Source: Selaginella tamariscina
Taxonomy: Eukaryota; Streptophyta; Lycopodiopsida; Selaginellales; Selaginellaceae
NCBI GenBank assembly: GCA_003024785.1
Contig: PUQB01000016.1
Span: 834,501-898,500 of the forward strand
Reading direction: 5' to 3'
DNA length: 64,000 bases
In this document: piece by piece, positions 37,480 through 61,028 of the stretch
Layout of the letters: each line of letters opens with the position of its first letter
Numbering within the stretch: position 1 is the stretch's first letter
Translations under genes and position numbers: made by a program
The notes under the pieces: generated by a model
Seen by the model: only the letters and a program-made list of their open reading frames with translations
What the model was told of the DNA's origin: nothing
The model's database searches: none

Positions 37480-40400
37480 ATAAGGATAGGGAACCCCTAG
37501 GGTTTGTCCAACAAAGTGTGAGGTTTGCACTTCCACATCACTACTGGCTTCTATGTCGTCTATGCTTAGTGATGTCATTTCAATCTCCTCTCCACCTTGT
37601 TTTAGGCCAAAAAGGGTGTTGCAATTTTGTACTTGTGACAGTAGGTTCTTCTAACTCTCGGACAACAGTCTCCCAATAGTCAACCACATGTTTATATAGT
37701 TCTGAGTAACCAGTTGCCTTATTAAAATTCTTTGGCATCGATTTTTGAACCCATGCCACATATTTTTTGATGCCATCAAACATACTTGAATTCGAACGGG
37801 TACGATTAATAAAAAACGCCGTTTAAAATGCGCGTATAATACGGCGTTTAAACACCAAGAATATTTTTAAAAAAAACCTAAAGAATATGCTTCTTTTTTA
37901 CTTAGGATTAGGGTCCATGTAAAATCAGGGTTCGCGGGATCCGGAAGCGCTGAGGTAAGTCCGGGATGGGGGAGGAAGGCAACCATGCTGGAGCTAGGCT
38001 CATGTTCTGAAACTGAGGCCGACATCTGAAACAAGCCACGGCGTGAGTCCATGGAAGTGTAAGTATTGCTCGAATACTTACACTGGCGGCTGAATGAGTT
38101 CGCGCTCACTTGGGGGTGTGAAAGGAAGGAATGTAGAGATTTGTACAGGACAGGTGCCACTGGAGGTGGTGAACAAGGCTCGGGCATCTTTTAATCGTGT
38201 GGAGCTATATTATATTAAACCTATATTATATTATGTTAAACTTTTTAGTAACAGTTAATTATTTTTTAATTATATTAAAACTGAAAACCATTATACCCGT
38301 TCAAAAAAAGCTAAACGGGTATTAAACGTTCGATACCCGTTCGAATCCGGTTGCGTTTGAATGTTCGGATGCAAGTATGCCATCAATAATAACTTTTGTT
38401 CCTTGAGCTGAGCACTCTATGGAATAGGGTCTAGTTGTCCTTCTGGGAGAAGTGGCTTTCCATCCTCTCCACTTTTGAAGAGCATTAAGCCTCTTTCGGT
38501 AACCACTTGCTCTGATGGCCGTAACTTGTACTGCATAATAGGTATACCATCTCGTATGGAGAAAAAGAATTGTAGCGGCACAAGGTGACCAACTAAAGAA
38601 TCACTCCCTTCTTTTATATACTCCTTGAGAAATTTTTTGAAGTCTGGCACCTCAGTCACAAGCAAAGCACAACTTTTTTTGGAGATGCAATTTTCAAAAA
38701 GATTCATCATATGCGGTAAGGTAAGTGCACTTGTCCTTTTTGTAGAGTTGGAGACCTTGCTGAAGAACGCATCAATATCTTCATGAGTGTGACCAACCAT
38801 AAGGAAACTGAGCGTGATTGTTCAAACACACCTTTGGCAACAAGCATTGACAAGTATGCTAGCACATATCTAGAAAATAAAAGTAAGTATGAGCTTGAGA
38901 AACCCTTAAGTAAAATGATTTACCTATTTTTGTTCTCGCCTGCACAATTATCCATCTGTAAAAGCAAATGACGAGGAAGCTTATTTGATGTTGAGGACAC
39001 ATGTACACTATTTGAGCTAGATCCCTCCACTGAACCTGAACTCTCAACAGGGCCATCTGTTTTTTGTGCAGGTTGCTGACAATGCCTCTCATATTCCCAA
39101 GTAGCCTCAAGTGCAGACGTGTTCATGAGAGCATTATGTAAAGGTTGAAGGTGTTGTTTCTTCACTTTGAGATCACTGATAGGACTTGTCTGTGAGTGGG
39201 CTTCAAGGTTTCTGAAACACATGGCTAACGACCCAATAGTGAAATTGGAGTCGCTAGACCAATGTGGAAGTGAAAAGTGTCCATATGACTCACAACCGTG
39301 TCCATGTGTTAGCACATGTCAATGAAATCGGAAGTTTCATGACATTTCCAAGGCACTTTGGTGTTGCAAGAGCTTTGGAATGCTGGTCTTTGAATGATCC
39401 ATCTTGTCATGGATCAAGCACAGGTACTCTGATGGGCGTGACACAGAAAGCATGGTGTGCATAGTACTGAGACCGGCAAGTTTGTTGTGCAATCATGTGG
39501 GCCTCCATCTTCTTTGAATGGCAGTGATCTCCACCAAGGTTTTTGCACAAGCCTCTGCAGCCTTCAATGATGTACAAGTGTCACACTTGGAAAAGCTAGA
39601 GTGTTTTGCAATCTCCACATCCTTAAAATGAGTATTCCATATGTTGTTGAAGGTACCAGTGCAGATTGCTTGGAGCCCCATCAAACTGAGGCACTTGTTC
39701 ACATGTTCACACAGCTTCAATTGAGTGTAGATTGAAGGCAAAACCTTGAGATTTTCCCTGACCCCTGCATTTGTGGTTCGGCATTTGTGAGGCATCCTGT
39801 CTGCATTTGCTTCCACAAAAGCCTTGAGTATCTCTATGGCTGCCATAATGTGAGAGCGGGTTTTGACCAAGCAGTGTTCCCATGAACTGAGGTTCGCGCT
39901 CCATCTAGCCACTCATCCCTCCGACGGTAGAACGTGGTCTTTGGGATCCCGTATATACTACCAAGCTTTGAAGCAGATGGCCACCTTATTAAATACCATG
40001 GATGTACTCTGATAACCTGTGTCCGAGGCCATTCCATCAATACACCCAGTTAGTGCAGCATATACAAACTCATGCCTTTGCTTTTGGGTGAGCATACGAA
40101 AGACATGTCTACATTGGGTAATTTCATTCCGGTCTGCCATCTGACAATACTTCTTCTTGCAGCAGTAATCATGGAAATGCTCGTAACACTTTCGGAAGAT
40201 GTAGGATCCATCTTACCCTCTTGCTGAAACTTGCAGGGAAGATCTGCAACCCATGAATCGCCTTTTTCTTACAATAGGACCAATGCAAGGAACCTCTTCA
40301 AATATGGTTGTTTTTCCGGGTTGTTATTATTGAAATCCAACCCAGAATATGTGAACCATCTTGCCGTCTTAATTCAGATGTTGCCACCTCACGAGGGATC

Positions 40401-40830
40401 CAGATGCAATGTGCCATTAGGTGAAACCTCTGTCACAACTACACCCACGAATCAGCCCTAGTTTCTCTTCTGACACTGCTTCCATTGGATTTATAGCTGT
40501 TGATGTGTCTCCCCAACCTCAATCTCATGAAGAAAGAGAATCACCTCATCCATCATAGCAGGCAAGCCATCATCTGGTAAACTCATGCTACTATTTATTT
40601 GTGACTCTGCATATTCTGTTAGCCTTGACTTCATCCAAATTCCACAATACAGGAGAACCCTCCTCAAATTCCATTCTTGGAACCTCAACATGCTTGTAAA
40701 TGGTGTTCACCCATACGTACACACAAGATCCTTGGGCAATATTGCGACATGATGCATTATCATCTCGATCTTCCACAGTTCCAGTGCCAACTATCTCGTT
40801 GTTCCGAAGAAACATACTTTATCTCCATTA
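37480..40830 (-). pseudogene. DUF7869-type transposon-like gene, copy 1 (interrupted by a hAT-like insertion)
   Basis: From 40830 leftwards the pieces run in this order: 'VYVWVNTIYKHVEVPRMEFE'; 'CCKKKC' region and 'NEITQCRHVFRMLTQKQRHE'; 'VAICFKAW', 'SIYGIPKTTFYRRRDEWLDG'; 'HSSFSKCDTCTSLK'; 'ESYGHFSLPHWSSDSNFTIG'; 'LLQMDNCAGENKNR', an intron (38885-38932, on the minus strand), 'YVLAYL'; 'VGHTHEDIDAFFSKVSNSTK'; 'MQYKLRPSEQVVTERG'; 'GIKKYVAWVQKSMPKN' and 'HPFWPKTRW'. 'DNCxxENKN' and 'GHTHEDID' are hallmarks of DUF7869 proteins, which spread with eukaryotic transposons and have a presumed RNase-H-like fold (family knowledge, from memory). Several one-base frameshifts and a 599-bp insertion make this copy nonfunctional as given. 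Confidence 0.7.
37781..38379. mobile_element. 599-bp non-autonomous hAT-like element inside DUF7869 copy 1
   Basis: Ends are inverted: 'CATACTTGAATTCGAAC' at 37781 and 'GTTCGGATGCAAGTATG' at 38363-38379 (outer eight bases perfect, the rest near). Flanks are CCATCAAA (37773-37780) and CCATCAAT (38380-38387), an 8-bp target duplication with one change. The uninterrupted second gene copy (about 56382) shows the empty-site arrangement. Subterminal repeats of 'AACGGGTA'/'TACCCGTT' occur at both ends, as in hAT elements. An internal minus-strand open frame (37867-38187) resembles nothing I know. Confidence 0.75.
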
Positions 40831-40987: not shown

Positions 40988-41745
40988 TGATGGGTGGGAT
41001 TAATCCCGCCCACGATCCCTCCGACGAGGAACGGTGGGTGGGATTAATCCCGCTGTGAACTCCCTCCGACGAGGAAGAAGCAGCGGAATTAATCCCACCA
41101 AAACTCCCTCCGACGGGAAGAGGCGGCATGATTAATCCCACCAAAACTCCTCCGACGAGGAAGAGGCGGCATGATTAAATCCCATCAACTCCTCCGACGA
41201 GGAAGAGGCGGTCGCAACACCCTTCCATGAGAAGAGTCAGCGGGATTAATCCCGCCCACAACTCTCACGACGGGGAATAGGTGGTGGGATTAATCTCCTC
41301 CACAACTTTCAACGGGAAATAGGTGGTGGGATTAATCCACCTATAATTATTTTCGAAGCTATGATTTCAAAGAGATCGCGAGGGGGTAGCGGGATTAATC
41401 TCACCGATGCTTTTCTATGTTCGAAATTGATTGACAGGATAAAATCCTGCCACAAATCTTTAAAACAGGGAAGTGGTGGCGAGATTAATCCCGCCACCCC
41501 TTCTCTGCCTCTTAGAATGGTGGCAGGATTAATCCCGCCGACAACTCTTTTTAATAAATTTAGGTCTTTATAATTGAGAGAGTTATCGGTGGGATTAATC
41601 CACCAGTCTTTTTCAGAGGTGAAGAAACATTGCTCGGACTAATTCTGCCATAGTTATCAAAAAATAGTAGCGGGATTAATCCTGCACTCTTCTAAGAGGC
41701 GAAAAAGAAATGGCTAGATTAATCCCCTGCCCCGGCTAACCGAGA
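40988..41745. repeat. Palindromic satellite array A (GGCGGGATTAATCCCGCC family)
   Basis: About fifteen units, 42-70 bp apart, each centred on 'GGATTAATCC' with GC-rich complementary flanks. The left part has a regular unit carrying 'CTCCGACGAGGAAGAGGCGG' between palindromes; the right part is more divergent. It abuts the 5' side of DUF7869 copy 1. Confidence 0.85.
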
Positions 41746-42346
41746 ATATTAAGTAAGAAGGATGTTTAAACGAGATAAATCCCTAATAGAATATAATGTA
41801 ATCCTAATGCATTCCTAAACCCCTAAATTTTAATTTTAAGAGAGAATGTAAGAGAGTGAATCTTTATAAGTATATCTAATTTTGTTTATAATACTTGTAA
41901 ACGGCACTTCCCAGGCGCTGCAGAGGGCGCTCGTGGCGACCCACCTCTCTCTATGCTTTCTTATAAACAATAGCACCCAATTTAATCACTCCTGAGTTGA
42001 TCACTATCAAGAAAAAAGAAGATCTAAAGAGTGAAAATTATATAAATAAAGAAACCCTTGCCAAGGAAAGAACCAGATCTGAATTTGAGTGGGAAATTAA
42101 ATGCATTTTCAATTTACATGTCAGACTGACAATACTTATATCAGAAATTCAAAAATTTTAAATAATAAAAGATAAATTTAAGATGAGTTAACACAAATAA
42201 CCAACACTTTGACATATATATTCTCCAATTCCAATGAGTGTTAAAAATTACATTTAATGTAATTCAAGTGATTCAAGCTGTTTAATATTACGAAATTTTA
42301 ATAATTATCTACATTCTTATATTCAAGTATATTTTAAGTTTAATTA

Positions 42347-42389
<43 letters not shown>

Positions 42390-43130
42390 TTATACAATAA
42401 ATAAATTGATATATTATTCTGTCTCATTTAAAATATATTCATAGTTATTTATTTATTATATTCTTAATTACTCGAGTATTAATTTACATTTCCTATTATT
42501 AATGGTATTCTTTATTATTTTCTTAATATTCAAAGAATATTCCAATATTAAACCTGATTATCATAATTAAATTAGTCTTATTCTTAATTATTTCAGTAAT
42601 TATTTTCATTTGTATATATTTAATGGATTCTAATTAATTTCTTATTATTTAAGAATATTCCTATGTTAAACCTTCTTTCAATATAATTAATATTATATTA
42701 AATATAATACTATATATATAGATAAAATGATATATTATTATGTATAATTTAAAATATGTTCATAATGTGTATATTAATATCATTTTTCTTAATTACTTGA
42801 GTAATTAATCTACATTTCTTTATATTAATGGGATATTCTTTATTATTTTCTTATTATTCCAAGAATATTCCAATATTAAACATGATTATCATAATTAATT
42901 TAGTTAATTATTTCAGTACTATTTACATTTATATATATTAATGGGATTTTCTCAATTAATTTCTTATTATTTTAAGAAATTCCAATGTTAAACCTTATTA
43001 TCAATATTAAATTAATATATATTATTAAAACTACTATATGGCTATATATTAGATAAATCATATATTATTATGTATAATTTAAAATATGTTCATAGTGTGT
43101 TTATTAATATTATTTTTCTTAATTATTCGA
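41746..43130. other. AT-rich spacer with a degenerate tandem repeat
   Basis: No gene. A (TA)n tract lies near 42350-42388. From about 42470 to 43100 a unit of roughly 165-190 bp repeats ('TTTACATTT', 'TTCTTATTATT.AAGAATATT', 'CCAATATTAAACCT.ATTATC'). Confidence 0.6.
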
Positions 43131-43720
43131 TGTTTGTTTTGTACACATAATATGTACTGTCTCTTCTCTCATACATACACACCATGCATGATCCAAATAT
43201 GTATTGATGTTACAATATATGTATTATGTATGTATGTCTGTTTATAATATGTGTATGTATATATGTGTATTAATATATGCAATGTGTATAAAATTAATTT
43301 TTTACACTCCTCTTTTCTCGTACATACACATCATGCATGATCCATCCTAAATCCTAAACCCTAAACCCTAAACCTTATGTAACACATTGAATTTACACAT
43401 GTAATATGTTTGTATGTCTGCGTGTATACATGTGTGTATGTATATATTGTTACTAATATATGCAATGTGTATGAATTTAATTTGTTAACACTCTTTCTCT
43501 TCCCTCATAACACACACGCATGCATGATTCAATATAATATGTACTGTCTCTCTTGTCTCAAACACACACCATGCATGATCCATAATATGTATTGTCTCTC
43601 TTCTCTCATACATACACACTATGCATAATCCATAATATGTAGTCTATCTCTCATCTCAAACATACACATCATACATAATATTACAATATTATATACTAAT
43701 ATGTTGTATGTATATGTGTA
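43130..43720. repeat. Tandem repeat of about 50 bp with an interstitial telomere-like run
   Basis: Units contain 'TGTCTCTCTTCTCTCATACA' followed by 'CACACCATGCATGATCC' and 'ATAATATGTA'. They recur near 43150, 43310, 43490, 43545, 43585 and 43640. At 43346-43374 there is 'CCTAAACCCTAAACCC', the plant telomere heptamer in about four imperfect copies. Confidence 0.75.
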
Positions 43721-44029
43721 TAATAGTATGTGTATATATATGTATTACTATATACATGAAAATTTAACACTCTCATAGACACACACATGTTAAACCCTGC
43801 ATGATTTATATTTTTGGGGTGTATGTGATACACCCACGCACATAAATTTAAAATTATGATAATATAATGAAAGAATATTTGTTTAAGGGTGAATCTATAT
43901 TTTTTTTTTTTTAGGGTTTAAGTATATTCTTAGAAGGAATATTTGATTATATTCTATTCCTTTTAGGGTTTAGGTATATTCTTAGGGTTTCAAGAAAAGC
44001 GGCAACTGTGAAATCTCCCTCTCTCTCAC

Positions 44030-44184
44030 ACATAGGTGAGATCTTTCTCTCTCTCTCTCACACGCACACTCCTGTGTTTATTTTATTATTTTTATTCACA
44101 TATACATTTATATGTGTGTATCTTAATAATAAAATTTATTTATCTATCTCTCGCACACACACGCACACTCCTATACATATACAT

Positions 44185-44222
<38 letters not shown>

Positions 44223-44320
44223 CACACACACATATATATACATATACATATATATGTGTGTGTGTGTCTCTATAATTTTAATTATTTATCTATCTCTTGC
44301 ACACACACGCACTCATGTAT

Positions 44321-44366
<46 letters not shown>

Positions 44367-44549
44367 TGTGTGTGTGTTTGTTTGTTTATCTGTATGATTT
44401 TATTTGTTTCGCTCACACACTCATATACACGATATACATATACACACATATATTATGTGTACCATTATCTGTATAATTTTATTTATTTATCTATCTCTCG
44501 CACACACACGCACACTCTTGTATATACATATACATATACATATATATAC

Positions 44550-44583
<34 letters not shown>

Positions 44584-44709
44584 CTGTATAATTTAATTTA
44601 TTTAGCACACACACCCGATATACATATATATACATATATATATGCGTGTTTATCTGTATAATCTAATTTATTTTGCACACACACGCACACACATGATATA
44701 CATATCCAT

Positions 44710-44763
<54 letters not shown>

Positions 44764-44850
44764 TGTATTTTATAATCTTATTGATTTTTCTATTTCTGGC
44801 ACACACGCACACTCCCATATATACATATACATATATATATATATATGACC
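44030..44850. repeat. Compound microsatellite field, about 110-130-bp higher-order repeat
   Basis: Six or so units of 'TTTATTTATCTATCTCTCGC' plus (CA)n, (TA)n and (TG)n are repeated head to tail. Long open frames here are only low-complexity reading of these repeats. Confidence 0.85.
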
Positions 44851-44854
44851 AAAG

Positions 44855-45725
44855 GGCGGCGGGATTAATCCCACCGCTATTTAGTTAGCCTCGCGAGCGA
44901 CAGGATTAATCCCGCTGCTCATCCGTTACCTCATGAGCGGTGGGATTAATCCCACTGCCCAGGCCCTTCATGTAGGTCATGAGCAGCGGAATTAATCCCG
45001 CCGCCCTTCACGCAGGCTATTTGGTTAGCCTCATGAGTGGCAGGATTAATCCCGCCGCCCATGAGGCTAATCAAAGAGCGGCGGGATTAATCCTTCCGCC
45101 CATGGCCTACATGAAGGGCCTGGGCGGTGGGATTAATCCCTCCGCACACACATGCCCTATGCAGAAGGTGGCGGGATTAATCTCGCCACTCATGGCCTAC
45201 ATGAAGGGCCTGAGCAGCGGTATTAATCCGCTGCCCATGGCCTGCCTAGCTGGCGGGATTAATCCTGCCGCCTTCCGCACAGGGCATGGGTGTGCGGCAG
45301 GATTAATCCCGCTAGCTAAACCTTCATGCAGGCCACGGGTGGCGGAATTAATCTCGCCGACCTTTTATGCTTGGTATCGGGATTAATCCCGCCAACTGCC
45401 TTAATCCATATGAGATTGTCGTGGGCGGGATTAATCCCGTCCACTAAGGGTGGCGTGATTAATCCTGCCACCCTTCTCTTTTTTCTTCATTGGTGAGTCG
45501 AATCAATCCTGACCATCTCTATCTAAGACGGAGAACGGTTACTGCATACCAATTGAGGGGACTGAGAAGGGTGGCAAGATTAATTCCACCATCCCTTCCA
45601 TGGTGGGCGAGATTAATCCCGCCACCCTTCTCTTTTCCCTGAATGGATGTGCCAAATAAATCCCGACCAGTTCTCTCTAAGACCGAGAAGATGGCGAGAT
45701 AAATCTCGCTCCACCTTCTATGTGA
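44855..45725. repeat. Palindromic satellite array B (GGCGGGATTAATCCCGCC family)
   Basis: About eighteen units at 35-60-bp spacing. Consensus core 'GGCGGGATTAATCCCGCC'. Linkers often read 'CATGGCCTACATGAAGGGCC'. Flank variants such as GGTGGG/CCCACT, GTGGCG/CGCCAC and CAGCGG/CCGCTG tend to stay complementary across the dyad. Confidence 0.88.
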
Positions 45726-46009: not shown

Positions 46010-47560
46010 GCAGAAGGACGATTTGATCAAACAAGGAGATTCAGTCATTAGTATGGAGTCGTCGTCAAATTCTGGGTAAGAATTATAATAAAATCTGTTA
46101 TACTCGGATATGTGCTTGAAGAACTAATCATTTTTATTCAGATGTGGAATTGAGGTGACATTGAAGACGAGAGCAGAGAAGAGATGGGCAGGGGATTCTG
46201 GAATCAACTTGGCATATTTCAAAATAAACGGGAAGCGCATTGGAGCAACCATGGTTGCTGTCAAACTAACCTCTGTCACATTGCATGGACAAGCAAAACA
46301 ATGGAAAGTAGATTTACTAGTCAAGCACCAAAGCAGTCTGCGAACCCAGATTGGACGATGCTCGACACGTATGCCTTGTTCCATCCAATGTCACGTTCTC
46401 GGATCCAGAGGTCGCCAGTTACAACATTAATCTCGGGTGGTCTTGTCGACTTGTGGATAATATGTTCACGTGTTCACTAATGATGTTGACCGTGGAGTTC
46501 TTCTTCAACTCAACGAAAGCCCATCTATGGAGGGGATCCAATTAGATGTCTACTTCGAAGATCTTCAGACTCATCGAGTAGGTGTATTCTCAACAGAGAT
46601 TGCTTCACAATATAGAACATCCACAAGTGGAGCAATCGTCCCTTCACAGAAGAACACAGCGACATCATTAGGGAGATTGAGAGGGTGGCTCGGTCCCAGG
46701 TTCTTTTACAGATCACGTTCAATTTGCTTAGGAATTTTTAGAAATGGAAGAGTGTGCCGAGAACATTAGAAGCTGCAGTCGGGGATCACACATGTTGATT
46801 TGGATCGTAGAAGAAAATCATCAGTCGTTTTGTCAGTTGCACCTGTGGCATCCCATGCTGCAATAAGCCACAAGGAAATGATGTTGGATATAGGATTTAT
46901 GAGTGTAGGGTTAAGTATTGCAGCGTCAACCCAAACTTCAATTACAGGCCACTTAACTAGGAACGTGTAGCTGAGCTCATGAGAAGATGAAGGACGCAAT
47001 TCTTACACCGTTCCACATAATGCTGTTTTGTGCCCATACTACGAAAGAAAGAAAGGCGCTGACAAAGTGTGGGTGACAACACCAGAAAATCACGAAGATT
47101 CAACGGAGAATAGAAAATCAATCAAGTACAAGAATCTCAATTAGTTCTAGTGGCCAACACAATAACGGCACCCAACGACTTCTTGATGAAACAACAAAGG
47201 AACGATGGCAACAAAACTTTTCAAGCATACCCGTGAAAAGCTGATAAAAAGATGGCATTTTTAGCTAAGCCAAATTTCATAATCGAGTAGTACCATAAGT
47301 TATCGGTGGAATGGGACGCTGCCGACACCAACCACTACAACAGTAAAATATGGGAGAAGTTCAGACACACGTGATTTGTGTGGGAACATTTTTAGGTGAC
47401 CACAAAGAGCTACTGCAGGGAATACACAATGTGCGAACTATCAGGTAAGCAAATTGTCTGGGCGGGATTATCTTGCCGGTATATTAATTTATCTTTTTTT
47501 TTCATAGAGTTGAAGAAATTGTAGCAGTTGATTTTGCCCAGGTGGGCAGGAAGGAAACAT
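46010..47560 (+). pseudogene. Unrecognised intron-bearing protein, frameshifted
   Basis: An acceptor at 46011/46012 is followed by 'DLIKQGDSVISMESSS', a donor at 46076 and an acceptor at 46141. The next part is 'CGIEVTLKTRAEKRWAGDSG', 'INLAYFKINGKRIGATMVAV' and 'KLTSVTLHGQAKQWKVDLLV'. Further collinear pieces in other frames include 'FSDPEVASYNINLGWSCRLV', 'DVDRGVLLQLNESPSMEGIQ', 'LDVYFEDLQTHRVGVF' and, near 47010-47120, 'HNAVLCPYYERKKGADKVWV'. I do not recognise the family. It runs into the left palindrome arm and may be the 5' part of the same transcription unit. Confidence 0.4.
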
Positions 47561-47759
47561 TCTTTTTGATGATGTTGATTTCATGTTCTGAGGATAAGAT
47601 CTTTGCCAAATGATTGGGGATTATGGAATCCTTTACTAAAGGAACACTAAAGAAGAAATAGACAAGTGAAGGGGAGCCCTCGGAGAAGTTTGCAAAGAAA
47701 CCCAGTAAGACACCGAAGGCTAAGTCTGTTCAATTTATAAAGGATGTAGATAATGATTT

Positions 47760-49150
47760 CAAGCTCACATGGTTGAAGCCTTTAAATGGAACAACGATGG
47801 AGGAGATGAAAGTCTTGGCTAATTTGGTGATTAATGGCAAACTATAGATTAACATTAGCAGCCCCACCTCTCCTTTTCATGTCAAGGCAATGGAATTGAA
47901 GACGGTTAGGCACTTCAAGGAGTGGTTGGGAATACACTGTCACAAACTGGGTTGGACCTCAACCTCAACATACGAAGAGGTCAGCAAATATTTGCATGTG
48001 ACAAATGATGATATGTTTGTCCAATGGGTGAATCAATCGGAATATCTGGGCAAGAATCTATTGCACGCCAACGCCAAAAAGGAGAACATTACAATGACGC
48101 CTTCTCTTATGGCAATCCTTAAGTAGCGGAGAACCGAGTTGAACCTTATAAAGGAGGATGCTACGAATCATAACAATCCCTACAGATGTTTGTTGTTGGA
48201 TTGGAGACTTTATGGGGTAACATCACTGCTTGTAGGAAATCGTTTCAATTGTTCGTGATGAATCGGCGGGTGTCAAAAAATCCTTCGACAGATAGGACAT
48301 TAGAGGATTTAGTGGAGAAACTTATCCGTGCAAGCATGTACAAAGAAGGTATTTATTATTGAATTCATGCTTGCACTCTTCACTGATACCTACGTTTTCA
48401 TGTATTTATTTTTAATTCTTACTCATGTCACCGATACTTTTGCCTTCGCCTTTGCTAAGAAGAATAGACATCATTGGATAGGATTTTATATGAATGATAC
48501 TAATCCCAAGTGCATTGATACGGTTGTTCACTTGGTTATTAGGAATGCACCAAACAATTTCAAACTTCTAAATGACTGGCCAAGCATCTATTTGCACTCC
48601 AACGGGCATGAACCTCCATCTAATACACCGATAGCTGAGAGGGACGTATTCGGCAATGTATGTTATCCAAACATCACAAGTCAAGCGGCACGGAGCATCA
48701 TCAACTTGATTAAGGGTCCTCATAGTGATGCATGGGTTTTTGACTACTGCACTAGGGGGTCTGTCTTGAAGGAGTGTTACCTTCGGGATACATGTGTGTT
48801 TGCCGTTAAAAGGATATAAGACCATGGTTGAGGACATGAACAAGTGGATAGAGAGGTTCTCAATTGACTACCCCAACAAACCCATACAGGAGTATTTAGG
48901 AAAGTTCCCTCCCAAGAAGTGCGATAACTCTGAAGACGAATCTGGTTCAATGTCGGAGTCTGAGGACGATCTTCAATTAGATATTAGACTAGAAGTTATC
49001 TCGAGGAGTACAGAACATTCACATACTCCATTACCTATGGAAACATCAACAGAAGATACAAAAGATTATGAACGATTTAATAAGTGGCTTAGACCTTCTT
49101 TGCCTCACTCAGAAGGTAATAGCGAAGAAGAATTATTAATGAGTTCTTAG
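47760..49150 (+). pseudogene. Degraded gene with beta-class DNA-methyltransferase-like region (left arm)
   Basis: Pieces in order: 'FKLTWLKPLNGTTMEEM'; 'HFKEWLGIHCHKLGWTSTST' with 'YEEVSKYLHVTNDD'; 'PYRCLLLDWRLYGVT' (in the place where such enzymes carry a DPPY-like motif IV); 'LFVMNRRVSKNPSTDRTLED'; 'FAFAFAKKNRHHWIGFYMND'; 'ERDVFGNVCYPNITSQAARS' and 'IINLIKGPHSDAWVFDYCTR' plus 'GSVLKECYLRDTCVFAV' (resembling motif X followed by motif I, 'VLDpfaGsGs'). The order IV-X-I fits class beta. A highly acidic tail follows ('SEDESGSMSESEDD', about 48920-48980). In-frame stops (for example 48124) and frameshifts make it nonfunctional. The methyltransferase reading is an inference from motif spacing, not a confirmed homology. 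Confidence 0.4.
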
Positions 49151-49404
49151 AGTGACGAATAGTTGTAAATGAGTGTAACATAAGACATTTTTGTATATTT
49201 CATTTATATTTGTACAGAAAATAAATTCTCAAGGATTAAAGAAGCTTTTAGTTCAAACATGGGTCACACATTAACAAGGTAAATAATATACCTTGATAAT
49301 TATAAGGCTAGCTAACTATCATTTTGCAAATGTAATGAAATAGTTGAGAACATGGATTTTCAGCATTGCCATGAGGTAAGAGAGGGGTTTGGCGAAAATT
49401 TCTT

Positions 49405-50290
49405 GTGCCACATGTCAGAATGACAGAGTTCATGCAGGAAATAGATAATAATGCAGCTCAAAACATCGTTACCATGGGGACCACTTTAATTTTTCATCAC
49501 CATTTATTGGCTTTAGTTCCTAAATCACTTTCTTCAGTGCCTATAATATCTGAATCTTGTAAGGATGATATACAATTAAATGATAAAGGAATAAGTAACG
49601 ATTAGTGTCAATAGATAAATGTGAAAGGGACCAAACAAGTGAGTTGCAAAGCATTCAAGAGGTAACACTACCCCATGTTACTCATGACCATATTGTGTTG
49701 TTGGATGTCAATAGTGTTCTGCTTCATCGACAAAGGCCCGAGGATAGAAAAGAAATCAAACAAGGAGATTTCATTCCTTGTCATGGTAAATTTTCGATAT
49801 GATATCATTTTTCATTCAGGGTTGGACCGTCTCTTTCAAAAGTTTAAAAAGATGGGTGCACTTGTGGGGATTTAGTCATGCATGCAGATTCACAACTTGA
49901 CACCGCTGCTGAATTTGCTTAAGAAACATAGTACTATTGCAGAAGAGATGATTCGTAAAAATTGGATTTTTGACCAGCGAATATGTTATAAACCTCTCGA
50001 ATTTCACAATATAAGAAAGGAAAGCAAGCCATACTTCTTCAAGAATGAAAGATTAATTGGGCTTCATGGGGAGATCAATCAATGAAGAACACACATATCT
50101 TAGTGGTAGACGACTCTCCTTAGAAAACTATGCTTAACCAAAACATTACTTGTATTCATCCAATCACTTTCGACCCATATTCTGATACTAATACCATGGA
50201 TGAGCTAGTGAACTACTTGGATACGTGCCTCAGAAAGAAGAATCTTGAAAACTTTTGTGAGCAGTATCCACCTATATCAAACATTTCCTA
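49405..50290 (+). pseudogene. FCP1/NIF-like HAD phosphatase remnant (left arm)
   Basis: 'DHIVLLDVNSVLLHR' (HAD motif I, DxN variant instead of DxDxT), then 'HSGLDRLFQKFKKMGALVGI' (the 'RPGLxxFL...xVGIWS' segment), 'IAEEMIRKNWIFDQRICYKP' with 'KPYFFKNERL' (Lys motif), and, across a frame break, 'THILVVDDSP' equivalents near 50100 and 'MDELVNYLDTCLRKKNLENF'. The DD-S-P motif is clear in the mirror copy. Plant FCP1-like proteins with 'DxNG' at motif I are known (family knowledge). Stops and frameshifts interrupt it. Confidence 0.6.
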
Positions 50291-51470
50291 AGCTTTTCTT
50301 TCTCGTGATTTTGAGTTTTATAAAATGAAGGATAGCAATCGGGCGCTTTACATATTATTCTTAAGGAAATCATTTTTTAGATGAGCCTTTATGCAGACCT
50401 GGTCTTATCACATCTTATGTATTAACAAGGATGCAACTCCAACTGCATTCGTAAGAGTGTTATGTAGTGGCAACAACATTAAAATATTGACCAAAATAAT
50501 TCAGATTTAGACAAAATGAGGAGATTTTCTCTGTATGTTAGGAAGAAAGTATTTATAAATAAATTAACATGTTGATAAAAATGATTTCATTTGTAATTAT
50601 GTTTGATAGTATTTTTTTATTATTGTAAACTATTTTTAGAACGAAGAATCATATGAATATTCTAAGATATTTTAGGAATATTCCTTACTAAGTAAGGTTA
50701 TTGAAGGATTAATTATTAATTAATTAATATTTAAGGCTTAATTACATATTAATTAAATAATTAATTAATAATTAAAACTTAAGTATTAATTAGTAATTTA
50801 TTTTATATTCCCATTTTCACGTATCATGCCCATTTTAATTACAACGTGCATATATAAATGTATATATGCATGTTGTAACTAAAATGGGTATAATACATGA
50901 AAATATAAATATAAAATAAATTACTAATTAATACTTAAGTTTTAATTATTAATTAATTATTTAATTAATATATAATTAAACCTTAAATATTAATTAATTA
51001 ATAAATTAATCCTTCATTAACCTTACTTAGTAAGGAATATGTTTAAAATATCTTAGAATATTCATATTATTCTTTGTTGTAAAAATAATTTACAATAATT
51101 AAAAAATACTATCAAACATAATTACGAATGAAATCATTTCCTTATCAACCTGTTAATCTATTTGTAAATACTTTCCTCTTTAACCATACAAAGAAATCTC
51201 CTTATTTTATCTAAGTCATCACTTTCCGGATTAATCAAATCATTTATGTCAATATCTTTATATTGTTGTCAACACTCTCACGAATGCAGTTAGGAGTTAC
51301 CATCCTTGTTAATACATAAGTTGTGATAAGAACAGGAGTGCACAAAGGCTTATTTAAAACATGACGTTCCTTAAGAATAATATTGTAAAGCACTCGGTTG
51401 CTCTCCTTCAATTATAAAATTTAAAATCACAATAAAGAAAAGCTTCAAAATATGTTTGATATGGTGGATA

Positions 51471-52281
51471 TTACTCACAAAAGTTTTTAAGATTCTTCTT
51501 TCTAAGGCATGTATCTAAGTAGTTCACTAGCTCATCCATGGTATTAATATCAGAATATGGGTCGAAAGTGATTGGATGGATACAAGCAATGTTTGGGTCG
51601 AGCATAACTTTTTGAGGAGAGTCATCTACCACTAAGATATGTGTGTTCTTCATTATCCTTAACTGATTGATCTCCCAATAAAGTCTAATTAATTTTTCAT
51701 TCTTGAAGAAATATGGCTTCTTTCCTTTCTTATATCGTAAAATTTGAGAGGTTTAAACATATTCGCTAGTCAAAAATTTAATCTTTATAAATCACCTCTT
51801 TTGCAACACTACAATATTTCTTAAACAAATTCAGCAATGGTGTAAGTTGTGAATCTGCATGCATGACCAAATCCCCACAAGTGCACCCATCTCCTTAAGC
51901 TTTTTGAAAGAGATGGTCCAACCTCGGGCGAAAAATGATATCATGTCGAAATTTACTATGATAAGGAATGAAGCAAAACACCATTGACATCCAGCAACAC
52001 AATATGACCATGGGTAACAAAGGGTAGCGTTGTTGCAACTCACTTGTTTGGTCCCTTTCACATTTATCTGTTGACACTATATTGTTGCCTATCCCTTTAT
52101 CATTTACTTGTACATCATCCTTACAAGATTCAGATATTGTAGGCACTAAAGAAAGTGATTTAGGAACTGAAGCCAATATAAATGGTGATGAAAAAATTGA
52201 AGTGGTCCCCATGGTAACGATGTTTTGAGCTGCATTATTATCCATTTTCTGCATGAACTCTGTCATTCTGACATGTGGCAC
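51471..52281 (-). pseudogene. FCP1/NIF-like HAD phosphatase remnant (right arm)
   Basis: Mirror copy. 'NTHILVVDDSPQKVMLDPNI' and 'NTMDELVNYLDTCLRKKNLK' (51471-51653) show the late HAD motif DDSPxK. Upstream pieces 'HVRMTEFMQKMDNNAAQNIV' and 'LVPTISESCKDDVQVNDKGI' lie at 51895-52281. Motif I is frameshifted here. Confidence 0.6.
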
Positions 52282-52532
52282 AAGAAATTTTTGCCAAACC
52301 CCTCTCTTACCTCATGGCAATGCTGAAAATCCATGTTCTCAATTGTTTCATTACATCTGCAAAATGATAGTTAGCTGGCCTTATAATTATCAAGGTATAT
52401 TTACCTTCTTAATGTGTAACCCATGTTTGAATTAAAAGCTTCTTTAATCCTTGAGAATTTATTTTCTGTACAAATATAAATGTAATATGCAAAAATGCCT
52501 TACGTTACACTCATTTACAACTATTCGTCACT

Positions 52533-53963
52533 TTAAGAATTCATTAATAATTCTTCTTCCCTATTACCTTCTAAGTGAGGCGAATAAGGTCTAAGCTGCT
52601 TGGTAGATCGTTTATGATCTTCCGTATCTTCTGTTGATATTTCCATAAGTAATGGAGTATGTGAATGTTCTGTATTCCTCGAGATAACTTCCGGTCTAAT
52701 ATCTGATTGAAGATCGTCCTCAGACTCCGACATTGAACCAGATTCCTCATCAGAGCTATCGCACTTCTCAGGAGGGAACTTTCCCAAATACTCCTATATA
52801 GGTTTGTTGGGGTAGTTAGTTGAGAACCTCTTTATCCACTTGTTCAAGTCTTCAAGCATGGTCTTATTCTTTTTCAATGGCAAACATACATGTATCCCGA
52901 AGGTAACACTCCTTCAAGACGGATCCCCTAGTGCAGTAGTCAAAAACCCATGCATCACTGTGAGGACCCTTGATCAAGTTGATGATGCTTCGTGCAGCCT
53001 GACTTGTAACGTTTGGATAACGTACATTGCCAAATATGTCCCTCCATCGGTGTATCAAATGGAGGTTCAGGCTCGTTTGAGTACAAACAGATGCATGGCC
53101 AGTCATTTGGAAGTTTGAAATTGTTTGGCGCATTTTAACAACCAAGTGAACAACTGTATTAATACACTTGGGATCAACATTGTTCATATAAAATCTAGTC
53201 CAACGATGTCTATTCTTCTTAACGAAGATGAAGGCAAAAGTATCAGTGACATGAGCAAGAATCAATAAATAAATACCTAAGAACCTAGGTATTAGTTAAG
53301 AGTGCAAAAATTCAATAATAAATACCTTCTATATACATGCTTGCATGGCTAAGTTTCTCCACTAGATCCTCTAGTGCCCTATCTGATGAAGGATTTTTTG
53401 ACACCCGACGATCCATCACGAACATTTGAAACGGTTTCCTACAAGCAGTGATGTTACCCCATAAAGTCTTCGAATCCGAACAAACATCTATAGGGCTTGT
53501 CATAATTCGTAGCATCCTCCTTTATAAGGTTCAACTCGGTTCTTTACTGCTGAAGGATTATCATAAGAGAAGGCGTCATCATGATGTTCTCCTTTTTAAT
53601 GTTGGCATGCAATAGATTCTTGCCCAAATCTTTCAACTAGTTCACCCATTGGACAAGCATATCATCGTCTGTCACATGCAAATATTTGCTGACCTCTTCA
53701 TATGTTAAAGCCAAGGTCCAACCCAGTTTGTGACAGTGTATTCCTAACCACTCCTTAAAGTGCATAACCATCTTCAGCTCTATTGCCTTGAGATGAAAAG
53801 GAGAGGTGGGGCTGCTATTATTAATATGTAGTTTGCCATTAACCATCAAATCAACCAAGACTTCCATCTCCTCCATCGTTGTTCTATTTAAAGGCTTCAA
53901 CCATGTGAGCTTGAAATCGTTGTCTACATCCTTTGCAAATTGAATAGACTTAGCCTTTGCCAT
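52533..53963 (-). pseudogene. Methyltransferase-like gene remnant (right arm)
   Basis: Mirror copy with better-kept parts: 'AKSIQFAKDVDNDFKLTWLK', 'TMEEMEVLVDLMVNGKLHIN', 'HFKEWLGIHCHKLGWTLALT', 'LFVMDRRVSKNPSSDRALED' family residues (53312-53515), 'DAWVFDYCTRGSVLKECYLR' with 'DTCMFAIEKE' (52864-53265), and the acidic tail 'SDEESGSMSESEDDLQSD' (52533-52787). The terminal 'AIEKE' matches the 'E' that follows motif I in many methyltransferases. The motif IV region is frameshifted differently from the left arm. Confidence 0.4.
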
Positions 53964-54033
53964 CTTACTGAGTTTCTTTGCAGACTTCTTCGAGGCTCCC
54001 CTTCACTTGTTTGCTTCTTCTTTAGTGTTTCTA

Positions 54034-56745
54034 GGATTATGTGTACGTATGGGTGAACACCATTTGCAAACATGTTGAGGTTCCTAGAATGGAATTTGAA
54101 GAGGGTTCTCATGTATTGTGGAATGTGGATGAAATCAAGGCTGACATAGAATATGCAGAGTCACAAACAAATAGTAATACGAGTTCACCAGATAATGACT
54201 TGCCTGTTGTGATGGATGAGGTAATTCTCTTTCTTCATGAGATCAAGGCATCATCACAGCTAGAAATCCAATGGAAGCCATATCAGAAGAGAAACTAGGG
54301 GCCTACTTCGTGGTGTAGTTGTGACAGAGGTTTCACCTAATGGCACATTGCATCTTGGATCCCTCGTGAGATGGCAAACATCTGAATTAAGACAGCGAGA
54401 TGGTTCAACATATTCAAAATTGAATTTCAATAATAACAACCTGGAAGGACAACCCATATTTGAAGAGATTCTTTGCATTAATCTTATAGTAAGAAAAAGG
54501 CGATTCATGGGTTGTAGATCTGCCTCTACAAGTTCCAGCAAGAGGGTCAAGATGGATTCTACATCTTCAGCAAGCGTTGCTAGCATTTCCACGGTTGATT
54601 GTTGCAAGAAGAAGTGTTGTCAGATGGCAAACCAGAATGAAAATACCCAATGTAGACATGCCTTTTGTATGCTCACCCAAAAGCAAATGCATGAATTTGT
54701 ATATACTGCACTAACTGGGTGTATTGATGGAATGGCCTTGGACACATGTTATTAGAGTACATCCATGGTATTTAATAAGGTGGCCATCTGCTTCAAAGCT
54801 TGGTACACTATATACGGGATCCCAAAAGCCACGTTCTACCGTCGGAGGGATGAGTGGCTAGATGGAGTGCGCACCTCAGTACATGGGAACACTCGCCTAG
54901 TCAAAACCCATTCTCACATTGTGGTAACCATAGAGATACTCAAAGCTTTTGTGGAAGCAAATGTAGACAAGATGCCTCACAAATGCCGAACCACAAATGT
55001 AGGGGTCAAAGAAAATCTCAAGGTTTTGCCTTCAATCTACACTTAATTGAAGCTGTGTGAACATGTGAACAAGTGCCTCAGTTTAATGGGGCTCAAAACA
55101 ATTTGCACTGGTACCTTCAACAACATATGGAATACTCATTTTAAAGATGTGTAAATTGCAAAACACTCTAGCTTTTCCAAGTGTGACACTTATACATCAT
55201 TGAAGGATGCAGAGGCTTATGCAAAAACCTTGGTGGAAATCATTGTCATTCAAAAGAAAATGGAAACCCACATGATTGCACAACAAACTTGCCGGTCTTA
55301 GTACTATGCACACCGCATGCTTTCTATGTCACGCTCATTAGAATACCTGTGCTTGATCCATGACAAGATGGATCATTTAAAGACCAACATTCCAAGGCTC
55401 GTTGCAACACCAAAATGCCTTGGAAATGTCATGAAACTTCCGATTTCATTGACATGTGTGCTAACACATGGACATGGTTGTGAATCATATGGACACTTTT
55501 CACTTCCAAATTGGTCTAGCAACTCCAATTTCACTATTGGGTCGTTGGCCATGTGTTTCAGAAACCTTGAAGCCCACTCACAAACAAGTTCTATGAATGA
55601 TCTCAAAGTGAAGAAATAACAGTTTCAACCTTTACATAATGCTCTCATGAACACGTCTGCACTTAAGGCTACTTGGGAATATGAGAGGCATTGTCAGCAG
55701 CTTGCACAAAAAACAAATGGTCCTGTTGAGAGTTCTGGTTCAATAGAGGGATTTAACTCAAATAGTGTACATGTGTCCTCAACATCAAATAAGATTTCTC
55801 GTCATTTGCTTTTACAGATGAATTGTGCATACGAGAACAAAAATAGGTAAATCATTTTATTTAAGGGTTTCTCAAGCTCATACTTACTTTTATTTTCTAA
55901 ATATGTACTAGCATACTTGTTAATGCTTATTGTCAAAGGTGTGTTTGAGACAATCATGCTCAATTTCCTTATGGTTAGTCACACTCATGAAGATATTAAT
56001 GTGTTCTTCAGCAAGGTCTCCAACTCTACAAAAAGGACATGTGCACTTACCTTACTGCATATGATGAATCTGTTTGAAAATTGCACCTTAAAAAAAAGTT
56101 GTGTTTTGCTTGTGACTGAGGTGTCAACTTTAAAAAGTTTCTTAAGGAGTATATCAAAGAGGGGAGCGATTCTTTAGTCAGTCACCTTGTGCCACTACAA
56201 TTCTTTTTCTCCATAAGAGATGATATACTTATTATGTAGTACAAGTTACGGCCATCAGAACATGAGTGGTTACCGAAATAGGGCTTAATGCTCTTAAAAA
56301 ATGGAGAGGATGGAAAGTCACTTCTCCCATAAGGACAACTTCATTGAGTGCCCAACTCAAGGAACAAAAGATTATTATTGATAGCATCAAAAAATATGTG
56401 GCATGGGTTCAAAAATCGATGCCAAAAAATTCTAATAAGGCAACTGGTTACTCAAAACTATATAAGCATATGGTTGACTATTGAAAGACTATTGTTCGAG
56501 AGTTAAAAGGGCCTATTATCACAAGTACAAAATTGCAACACCCTTTTTGGCCTAAAACAAGGTGGCGAGAGGAGATTGAAATGACATCAATGAGCACAAA
56601 CGACATAAAAGCCAGTAGTGATGTGAAAGTGCAAACCCCACACATTATTAAACAAACGAACCAAAAACCTAAACCATACTTTAATTGTTACAAGGATCTT
56701 CAAAAAACTGATGATTGTCCTCATTATTCCAGATGTGTCATATAA
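54034..56745 (+). pseudogene. DUF7869-type transposon-like gene, copy 2 (5'-truncated)
   Basis: Collinear with copy 1 in opposite orientation: 'VYVWVNTICKHVEVPRMEFE' relation at 54041, 'CCKKKCCQMANQNENTQCRH', 'SIYGIPKATFYRRRDEWLDG'-like (54765-54870), 'ESYGHFSLPNWSSNSNFTIG', 'LLQMNCAYENKNR', 'VSHTHEDINVFFSKVSNSTK', 'IKKYVAWVQKSMPKNSNKAT' and 'HPFWPKTRWREEIEM'. Compared with copy 1, the Asp codon before NCA is deleted and HEDID reads HEDIN, so the two best candidate acidic catalytic positions are lost. Many stops and frameshifts. The 5' end is cut at the palindrome junction. Confidence 0.7.
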
Positions 56746-59573
56746 TCAACCTATTTAGATGAGTAAAATTATCGACATACTTGAAGTTATCATAAAAAAT
56801 AATATGATTAAGGTTGCATGGTTCAAACCATAAAAAAAGGCGATACGAGAAGAAGAGCAAAAGATATAATGGATGCCTAGAGAAAACATAGTCTCCCAAT
56901 TAAAATGTTTTGTTAATTATGACTTTATCAACGCTTCTTAAACATCCACCTATATCGAATGTATTTAACATTTATAAAACTGCAAGAAAATGTATGTTTT
57001 TTAAAGCTTAAAGCAATTACAAAATTATAAAATATAATATATTTAATATTCATAATTATATAAACTCTTTAATAATTGTACCAAATTGTTTACTTAACTA
57101 TATCAATTTATAAAAAGATATGCAAGATTGACTATATAGAATTTTGTATATTATATATATATTATTACTAGTACAAATGTTTAATTAATGTTATATTTAA
57201 ATATTAATATTTTAATAACAACATCAATATTTATATAATGTACCTCTCATGCTCTTTAATAATTTATATTAGGCCCATACAATCTTAAATATGATATATA
57301 TATAACTTAATACCTTCTACTTTTATAATGTTATGAATGCTATAGTTTATTAAAGAGTCAATTACAAAAATAAAATATTCTAAAGAATATTTGTTTTCAA
57401 ACATATATTTTAAAGAATATTCTTTCTTTAAACATATATTATTCTAAAGAATATTCTTTTAATATTAGAAAATACTAATTAAATAACTAAAATTACTAAT
57501 TATTAAGAAATGGGACTATAGACATTTTCATTTTAATTACAACTTATATGTATTATGTATGCATGTGTACAAGCATACATCATATATAACCCCAAATATG
57601 AATGTATAAAATAAAATAAAACTATAAAAGTTATAATAAAATGAGTAATAAGTGTTCATTATAAATTTTATAATATATGTTCTTTTATAAAGTATAATGT
57701 TTTCTTTAATTGTGTTAAGAAATATACTTATTTCATTAATTAAAAATTATATATTGGCAAAGTGATAAGTTTGTTTCTAAAATTTTAATAAATTGTTTCA
57801 CATTTAAATTATGCTTAAACATTATAGTTATACATTATTTAAAATAAGTAATATCTTATTTCCAAGGTAATATAGTACATGGATAGTTTAGAGTTTTATT
57901 GTAGTTTTAAACTTAAAAAATTAAAATTATCTATTAAAATGATTTGAATTTAATCTTAAACTTTATTAACTTTCAAAAGAAGGAATATATTAGTAATAAC
58001 CCGTGTGTAAGATAAATATATAATATATAATTTGAATATGTGTTTTAATTAAATAATTTAATATATTTCGACTTCAACTTTTTTAAAAATAAAATAAAAT
58101 TAGAGTATGAATAAAAAACGTGTTTAGTGTCCTTAAAGTTTTAAAAATACATATAATTATAAAAAATTTATTTCCATCAAATATATCTTAAAGTCATAAA
58201 AATTTATTTCTATATATAACATATAATACCTCCATATAAAGATTGTAGTAATAATAATAATTATTATTATTATAAGAAAATATTGACATGGTAAAGTGGT
58301 AAATGTGATTGTTTAATTTAATTTTTATTATTGTATATAATTTAAAATTTATTTTATTTTTTACCCTTATTTTAATTAATTAAACAAACACAAATTAAAA
58401 ATGCACTTTTAATGAGCCTAAATTAAAAGTTAATTCTTTTTTATTATAATAACAAAGCTAAATCAATTATGCAAGCCATATGTTTTGATTCACTTTTGAA
58501 TTTAAATAGGAATTATTTGTTTTAATTATTTATATAATTTTGGTAAAGATAAATGATTTACATATAATGAAGCACATGAAAAATACACATCAAAAACTTA
58601 ATCTTATTTTTTTATGTTTGATCTTTAATGTTATATTACTTATTGATTTATCAATATAATGACAAAACTTGTTTAATATTCCAAGGGTTAATGAGATGGC
58701 AAAATTATTTATATGGCTAATAATATATATAAATTATAAATAAATACTAAAATTATGTTGTACAATTACAAAACTTATTTAATATTCTAGGGATTAATAA
58801 TAGGGTAAACTTATTTATATGGCAACCAATATATAAAATTATTTATAATTACTAAGTTACATCACATAAATTACATGATTCACTTGATAATTATTATTAA
58901 ACAATTTCTTAATATTATCACTAAAAATCATATTCTTCTTAAGTTATAAAATTATTATAACTAATTATTCATGTGTTACATGTTTACTGTGGTATAATAC
59001 AAATTTAATTGATGCATTAGTAATGTCTCTATGTTTGGTTAAATCACTTGTGTAGATAAACAAGGATAACATTATTTTTAGTTTCTGAAAAATTATAATT
59101 GAGTAACAAGTGGTATAGTCTAAGGTATTCATTTATTAAATTTTATAAATAATTATTTCAAATAGTCTAGAAAATATATAATTCTTTAATGCATTTTACA
59201 TATTCAATCTCAATATATTTCTAAATTGCATGTTATATTATCGGCAGTGCATAATATATAATATTAAAAATTATATACTTTGAAATATATTAAAAAGACA
59301 TTATTGATTTTAAAATTCATCTTTCAACATAAATTTCACTAATGCAATATTAAAATTAAAAAGAAAATATAAAATTTATAAATTCGCATTACATTTGAAT
59401 TAAGAATAATAGCATTATTGTTGTATTTTATGTTAATCTTTTCTCCTAATGAATTTAATGTTTTTGGTTTTAGTTTTGTCTTAATTTCTTATTTGTTAAT
59501 GTCACCTTTTTTTTATCTTAATTACAATATTGTATTTATTCATGATTTAAATTTTTTTTTAAGAATGTATTGT
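56746..59573. other. 2.8 kb AT-rich intergenic DNA
   Basis: No gene, RNA or clear repeat unit recognised. 'AAAGAATATT' recurs several times around 57380-57470. Confidence 0.55.
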
Positions 59574-59837: not shown

Positions 59838-61028
59838 TGGAGACGGCGTTTAGCATTATTGCTACTGCTATTGATGCACAAACTAAGTTGTTGGAGCGCT
59901 TTGTTGAGGGTCCGTCCTCCTCTTCCCCGTTGAGCCTCATGCCGGGGGATCTGCTTCTAGTACTCCTTCATCTTCTTCACAGGCCACAAATCCGAGGGTT
60001 CGACCCCGATCTTTTTGTGGTGATCCGGGAGATGATGTATACCACTGGTTTGATCATTTCCAAGTCATTGTTCGTTACCATGGTTGGGATGAGGCCCGTG
60101 CTCTCAGAGAATTCCCTACATGTTTGGAAGGCCTGCGCTCAAGTGGTATAATGGATTGGCTGCGGAGATTCAAGCCAATAGTAATCGGTTAACGGAATGC
60201 CTCAAACGTACGTTTGGCAAAGTTGAGGATTCAGATGATGCTTTCCAACAACTGCATGCGATACGACAACATCCTGGTGAGTCTGTTATGCGGTTCAGTA
60301 TTAGGTTCGGGGATTTAGTTCGGCGTGCATATCCTAACATGCCTGAGCCTATTAAGCTCGGTATGTTATGGCCAACTATGCGACCCGAACTTGTTCGATT
60401 CGTTCGGGCTCTTCGTCCTACCACATTGGAGGAAGCTTTTGCACTAGCTCAACGTTTTGAGTTGGTGCCTGGTGAGGGCCGTGTTCCCCTTGGGTTACCT
60501 GCTCCTCTTGTTCAGCGTGCTGATCCAATGGAGGTTGATGCTGCTGCATATGTGCCCGCACGGCAAGCCTTTCGTGGTCGACCTCGGGGCCCACCCCGTG
60601 GACCACCTCCACGAAATCGTCCTGCACCTGCTCCAGTACCTGCCCGTGGTGGTCAAAATCCACGGATTCGTGACAGGAGGAATCGGAACAATGCAGGTCG
60701 ACCCAATCAAGTTCATTGTTGGGCCTGTTGGGCACCTGGACATACTTGGCGGGCATGCGATGTGTATCCTGATTGGCGTCCACCACATCCAGGCTGGCGA
60801 CCATATGTTCCGGATGGTGTGCCTGTGGCGGCCATTATGGCTATGATGAGCTTCCAGATGACGAAGCCTCTCTTGCAGGTGGATCTGTTGCGGAAAACCA
60901 GTAATCGTACGGGCGACGGAGGGATCCCGTGCGATGGAGACTTCACCTCCATGTTTTTTGCTATGCATATCAAGGTTTGCAAGTTCCACCAGATCATCCA
61001 GTTTTCACATTTTCTGCACGGTGAATGA
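59838..61028 (+). CDS. Ty3/gypsy gag (frameshifted)
   Basis: The ATG at 59838 gives 'METAFSIIATAIDAQTKLLE'. After one frame change, 'DDVYHWFDHFQVIVRYHGWD' is typical of the retrotransposon gag capsid fold. Then, from about 60125, 'KWYNGLAAEIQANSNRLTEC' and 'RQHPGESVMRFSIRFGDLVR'. A basic, proline-rich stretch precedes one zinc knuckle, 'CWACWAPGHTWRAC' (CX2CX4HX4C). Gag assembles particles that package the element RNA. Two frame changes (about 59990 and 60130) break it. Confidence 0.8.

Follow-up and report, generated by a model that had tools for sequence, protein, structure and literature searches.

Introduction

The closest described counterparts of the arrays analysed here are the VANC-target repeats of VANDAL transposons, which are Mutator-like elements of Arabidopsis. 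According to the main texts of two reports (PMC5735166, PMC10398659), the repeats of the VANC21 motif YAGTATTAY all share one orientation, and the arrays grow and shrink from one close copy to another. A feature proper to the VANDAL VANC system is that an element protein binds the motif and removes DNA methylation. Galileo and Foldback-like elements, as presented in the text of PMC3688188, carry transposase binding sites in internally repetitive long terminal inverted repeats, and multiple sites in tandem repeats are proposed there to raise specificity. IS481EU, as described in the text of PMC10045372, belongs to a different superfamily from the present element.

Here we analysed a repeat in Selaginella tamariscina that resembles the VANDAL case in two respects: a dense short motif occupies noncoding regions, upstream ones included, of a multi-gene DNA transposon, and its arrays expand and contract between close copies. 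Unlike VANC21, the motif is an 18–20-bp palindrome with linkers in both orientations, and the term “palindrom-” does not occur in the main texts of the two VANDAL reports. A DUF7869 protein is present instead of a Mutator transposase, and no VANC relative was recognized. As in Galileo, multiple (here predicted) sites for an element protein are repeated in tandem; unlike in Galileo, the arrays lie about 3.8 and 5.2 kb from the element ends in the copy holding L010. Judged by title or abstract, the literature searched does not describe this element; Repbase and subscription papers, which may list it, fall outside that scope. The name DUF7869 is absent from the openly accessible literature searched, and the string GGGATTAATCCC occurs there only in an unrelated context, as judged by title and abstract.

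Results

Two palindrome arrays lie upstream of divergent transposon genes

The window, by which we mean the whole 64,000-nucleotide stretch analysed, contains two arrays of the palindrome GGCGGGATTAATCCCGCC, located at 40993–41729 (array A) and 44858–45710 (array B); neither is assigned a strand. Array A is decayed and shows a spacing of 42–45 bp in 8 of its 13 intervals. Array B consists of the same palindromes and is the stretch in which the initial annotation recognized a palindromic satellite. With at most one mismatch, GGATTAATCC matched the window 29 times compared with 2.3 times in shuffles, and 28 of the 29 matches fall inside the two arrays. Young units have the perfect palindrome GGCGGGATTAATCCCGCC, which in many cases reaches 20–24 bp. 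In the genome search that the annotation had proposed, run at up to three mismatches, the whole genome (300.7 Mb) holds 70,550 palindrome matches, against 11 for the reversed pattern. Dividing these sites by 29–46 units per copy gives an estimate, rather than a direct count, of ~1,500–2,400 array-bearing copies, with sites counted at up to three mismatches and units at up to four.

The main clusters comprise 8 to 28 palindromes each. An identical core separates unrelated linkers of about 11–108 bp, and the unit spacings are irregular (18–142 bp, with 200 intervals at 44–46 bp). A plain tandem satellite, with head-to-tail units of one sequence, was rejected because the linkers are unrelated and several linker classes occur in both orientations. 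The palindromes and their two arrays are real, but they are not a free satellite: they are located upstream of two divergent genes of a ~14.8-kb DNA transposon. Among 341 sites in the 222 kb examined, four were listed as isolated; one of these results from trimming, and the remaining three represent a single homologous site. This isolated palindrome (two mismatches; L015:6848, L013:115 and L011:499) lies within the right gene, ~1.76 kb from array B. Near its position in the window, the best match carries seven mismatches.

Architecture, genes and ends of the element

Eight loci (L009–L013, L018, L026 and the window), seven of which were picked at array matches or contig starts and hence non-randomly, carry A and B arrays around an AT-rich centre. 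In the window, this centre spans 41800–44850 (no strand), with GC contents of 0.175, 0.262 and 0.327 in kilobases 42–45. Four copies of the plant telomere-type unit CCTAAAC are found within it at 43346–43374.

The left gene (38417–40818, minus strand) is decayed and interrupted, and array A lies ~175 bp upstream of its outermost open frame (40591–40818). It matches DUF7869 at 38417–38821 and 38920–39318, and two window segments scored 73.3 and 41.4 bits against Pfam PF25273 (cut-off 26; E values of 2.6e-20 and 1.5e-10). The encoded protein is probably the transposase. Across the genome, a first look gave 4,249 DUF7869 candidates, of which the 150 scored yielded 300 matches. No DUF7869 was found in 14 control genomes, which says little because the one identified among them is a cyanobacterium. 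In Pfam, the left-gene segments match DUF7869 and no Mutator model; without a Mutator transposase, the element does not qualify as a VANDAL member.

The right gene (46053–50378, plus strand), downstream of array B, is likewise decayed and interrupted, and its first ATG is placed by inference near 46053. At 46811–47500 it resembles an uncharacterised stretch of copy L015, and its part at 49375–50378 is NIF/FCP1-phosphatase-like. The Pfam match to NIF is that of copy L015 (PF03031, 2.4e-07), the second part alone scoring below the cut-off; window stretches 49375–50378 and 51357–52311 are relatives of the L015 segment (L015:8736–9753). An NIF/FCP1-type phosphatase domain in the second gene was seen in all six right-hand stretches of sufficient length, including L062, L063 and L066. 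This domain is possibly a captured host gene turned element part. In both proteins, only DUF7869 and NIF scored above the Pfam cut-off and no DNA-binding domain was recognized; no recombinase domain was present in the segments scanned. The second stretch of the right gene looks ParB-like by eye only and has no such Pfam match. The three segments searched against solved structures returned no relatives.

Both element ends were found for two of the three copies tried, C1:796443–811238 (14,796 bp) and C3:98771–113613 (14,843 bp), and both carry the terminal inverted repeats TGCAAGTTGTAAC and TGCACGTTGTAAC at their ends. For the third copy (L012), the left end was found and the right end is absent from the stretch examined. 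The right-end terminal match extends over only about 26 bp. In the copy holding L010, the arrays lie about 3.8 and 5.2 kb from the ends, which rules out arrays of subterminal transposase sites. In the window, a terminal-repeat search located the right terminal inverted repeat of copy 1, the array-bearing copy, at 50825–50850 (minus strand); its left end was not found, and homology with other copies ends near 37503. Copy 2 (50867–57545, plus strand; ends at 50867–50888 and 57477–57545) is inverted relative to copy 1. It retains parts of both genes and lacks the arrays, the AT-rich centre and the start of the right gene (join at 54032/54037). The facing ends of the two copies, 16 bp apart, form an AT-rich near-palindrome of ~360 bp (50680–51040).

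The flanks of the two full copies share nothing beyond TGCA. Of 12 clean ends of the element family, 11 carry this tetranucleotide, the exception being the end at 57545. In L018 it is split off, and a related element in L028 has two ends that lack it. TGCA may belong to the element end or be a fixed target. The two L028 ends, which start with GTTGTAAY without TGCA, are ~230 bp apart (L028:5553–5781) and perhaps delimit a miniature non-autonomous relative. We also considered whether other DUF7869 copies carry different palindromes; three further copies, chosen for their differing domain matches, carry the same one, and among them there was no sign of a VANDAL-like replacement of the motif from family to family. 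Elsewhere in the window, 60120–62748 contains Ty3-type retrotransposon frames (protease, reverse transcriptase and RNase H above the cut-off, a gag-like match just below it), and 7615–9327 contains a pentatricopeptide-repeat gene with an E motif in two reading frames. The PsaF protein encoded in this genome is closest to PDB entry 9lut, followed by 8htu and 6l35, both from moss, so that the host is probably a bryophyte or some other early-branching land plant.

The two arms change independently except at the tenth pair

The initial annotation proposed that the arms of the palindrome co-vary. Its five quoted flank pairs and the altered core near 45690 are all present in the sequence. For at least two of the five examples, the consensus of the unit family is itself a long palindrome: that at 45421 is the KD unit GTGGGCGGGATTAATCCCGCCCAC (consensus from 10 distinct haplotypes) and that at 45449 is the DI unit GGGTGGCGGGATTAATCCCGCCACCC (consensus from 7). 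The core near 45690 shows a real double change, G to A at position 5 in both arms; across the window units, position 5 has one such double change against 1.3 expected.

Scoring the observed against shuffled pairing for 38 units of both arrays (up to three core mismatches, kinship among units uncorrected) revealed no excess at dyad positions 1–5 (0.826 vs 0.834 shuffled) or 6–9 (0.533 vs 0.536). Position 10 was paired in 20 of the 38 units, compared with 12.1 in shuffles (p=0.004), and positions 10–13 pooled gave 0.428 vs 0.349 (p=0.017).

Relatedness was corrected for by grouping homologous units by their flanking linkers in 40 arrays, comprising the window and fetched copies. Units with up to two core mismatches were taken, which places the window unit at 45697 outside the test; L040 yielded no units. 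We used 31 of 109 groups, each from a named linker class (neither x nor X) and with no fewer than five distinct haplotypes, representing 351 distinct haplotypes. At positions 1–9, there were 43 double deviations vs 44.8 expected, of which 21 were paired vs 22.2 expected (p=0.65). At position 10, paired double changes numbered 18 vs 11.6 (p=0.024), and at positions 11–14 merely 15 vs 27.3. Among 53 group consensuses, pairing clearly exceeded the permuted level at position 10 alone (0.62 vs 0.38, p=0.0005; position 11, p=0.10). In the 32 groups where one or both linkers fall outside the common classes, pairing at position 10 was 0.44 vs 0.31, which is not significant (p=0.10).

A third test, also corrected for relatedness, sorted 387 near-perfect units into 105 flank clusters, 87 of them non-mirrored, with permutation within array type. 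Position 10 was paired in 51 of the 87 clusters vs 37.0 expected (p<1/3000), and positions 11–15 showed no excess. The coupling held under stricter clustering (32 of 53 vs 23.1, p=0.0023) and in clusters without A at position 10 (44 of 58 vs 37.0, p=0.004). A run that included mirrored clusters gave the same coupling, which persists after their removal. An apparent coupling at position 16 (42 of 109 vs 32.0, p=0.026, with mirrored clusters) disappeared upon that removal. Inversion junctions were rejected as a source of paired flanks, mirrored clusters being in no clear excess (18 vs 12.2, sd 3.0).

An uncorrected test on 418 units also gave signals at positions 7, 8 and 16, the last in the linker, which were discarded. 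The signal at position 7 (z 6.3) vanished in the homologous groups (2 paired double changes vs 4.3). This position lies in a CpG, and we infer that unequal copy age could decay both arms together. The three tests agree. The description that fits the site best is therefore a palindrome of 20 bp, of which the 18-bp core is conserved, whereas the outermost pair varies but is coupled. Co-variation is thus absent over most of the palindrome, where the arms change independently, and present at its tenth pair. Such independence is the outcome that the initial annotation had named as refuting its proposal, which is thereby refuted for most of the palindrome.

Core conservation and linker rearrangement

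Because arm changes are independent at positions 1–9, it is the sequence that is conserved rather than pairing as such. Divergence was compared in 19 array-B and 11 array-A sequences, after removal of duplicates, L015 and the second L017 array. Core A/T columns diverged by 0.022 vs 0.071 in linkers (p<1/5000), and core G/C columns outside CpG by 0.124 vs 0.175 (p=0.029). Within the arms, positions 6–9 were slower than linkers for G/C (0.121, p=0.023) but not for A/T (0.098 vs 0.071). CpG columns diverged fast, by 0.20 in arms and 0.25 in linkers, as expected of methylated, dead copies. Besides selection, homogenisation within arrays could lie behind part of the core conservation.

Of 759 linkers, 303 were assigned to five trimmed seed classes, each present in both orientations: 75 forward, 30 reverse and 11 ambiguous in class A; 74, 20 and 0 in class B; 36, 4 and 7 in class C; 18, 10 and 0 in class D; and 15, 3 and 0 in class E. 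Classes F, G and I–P occur in one orientation only, and several of them adjoin genes. Single arrays contain six pairs of trimmed linkers that are exact inverses of each other (one each in L009, L010, L011 and L018, and two in L012). The inverse linkers of L018 are neighbours, and the same inverse pair recurs in L009 and L010 with six and three other linkers in between. At one slot where L009 and L010 carry another sequence, L012 has a nearby linker copied in inverse orientation. Between close copies, linkers switch at palindrome borders, and unit number and linker orientation also differ. Since a palindrome reads the same after inversion, recombination between any two of them can take place in both orientations, which explains the mixed linker orientations without a special enzyme.

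Discussion

The reading we favour, with reasonable though incomplete confidence, is that the arrays are dimeric binding sites for an element-encoded protein, either a regulator or the transposase. From the arrangement of sites and genes, a dimeric DUF7869 protein or right-gene product would bind the 18–20-bp dyad-symmetric sites in the two facing upstream regions of the ~14.8-kb transposon, probably cooperatively, and would control element transcription or silencing and possibly transposition too. Dense identical dyads directly upstream of both genes, conserved in sequence and renewed by recombination, are expected of binding sites for a dimeric protein. Among the origins that the initial annotation had offered, a dimer site fits best because conservation of the core extends to its individual bases and unrelated linkers have this core in common. 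Our confidence falls from the proposal that a protein may bind, through its being element-encoded, to its action on silencing or transcription. The paired flanks would then reflect a palindromic consensus, the coupled tenth base pair and perhaps the use of palindromes as homology anchors, at which linkers would be inverted, duplicated or deleted. After insertion, copies would decay independently on both arms, fastest at CpG.

The arrays could instead be a neutral internal minisatellite that expands, contracts and inverts, with the palindrome only a homology anchor and no protein bound. Cluster sizes of 8 to 28 units and the variation of unit number and linker orientation among close copies agree with this, but unrelated linkers are divided, at irregular intervals, by one identical 18-bp sequence, change is slower in the core than in the linkers and the arrays lie upstream of both genes, so that we consider it unlikely. 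That last position would equally suit a host transcription factor driving the two promoters from an enhancer motif borrowed by the element. We regard this as rather improbable, since no site lay outside the element in the 222 kb, where the three truly isolated sites are one in-element site; the test is weak because most of that sample was chosen around arrays.

Selection for a hairpin or cruciform, or gene conversion between arms, would keep flanks complementary, and the coupled tenth pair, with its excess of paired double changes, is what either would produce. Selection on pairing alone also predicts an excess of compensated stem changes, and apart from position 10 none was found at positions 1–9 in the 351 haplotypes, in the 53 group consensuses or in the window, nor are positions 11–15 coupled. 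The core is therefore conserved as sequence, and we hold these origins, both raised by the initial annotation, to be very improbable. As to its idea of a recombination site, linkers are inverted within single arrays and swapped between close copies, with borders at palindromes, as a shufflon-like, programmed site-specific recombination would have it. The same pattern would, however, arise from homologous recombination or conversion of the ordinary kind between 18-bp palindromes, the scanned segments hold no recombinase domain and mirrored-flank clusters are not clearly in excess; with no sign of site specificity, we consider such a system the least credible of the explanations.

Returning to dimeric binding sites, a more specific and decidedly tentative version is that a DUF7869 transposon independently evolved VANC-like anti-silencing or self-activation. 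A dimeric element protein, perhaps the phosphatase-bearing right-gene product, would read arrays of palindromes; as these sites are self-inverse, recombination would keep renewing the arrays in either orientation.

By these results, what had looked like an enigmatic satellite is probably the control region of a highly abundant plant DNA transposon, one of whose genes encodes a protein of DUF7869 (PF25273), a Pfam family without an assigned function. A further lesson is that the arms of decayed palindromes can seem to covary largely because they share a palindromic consensus and then decay independently. If the sites bind an element protein, the marking of a transposon's copies by site arrays would extend beyond the Mutator-like elements, and the cause of the very fast turnover of such arrays could be tested directly.
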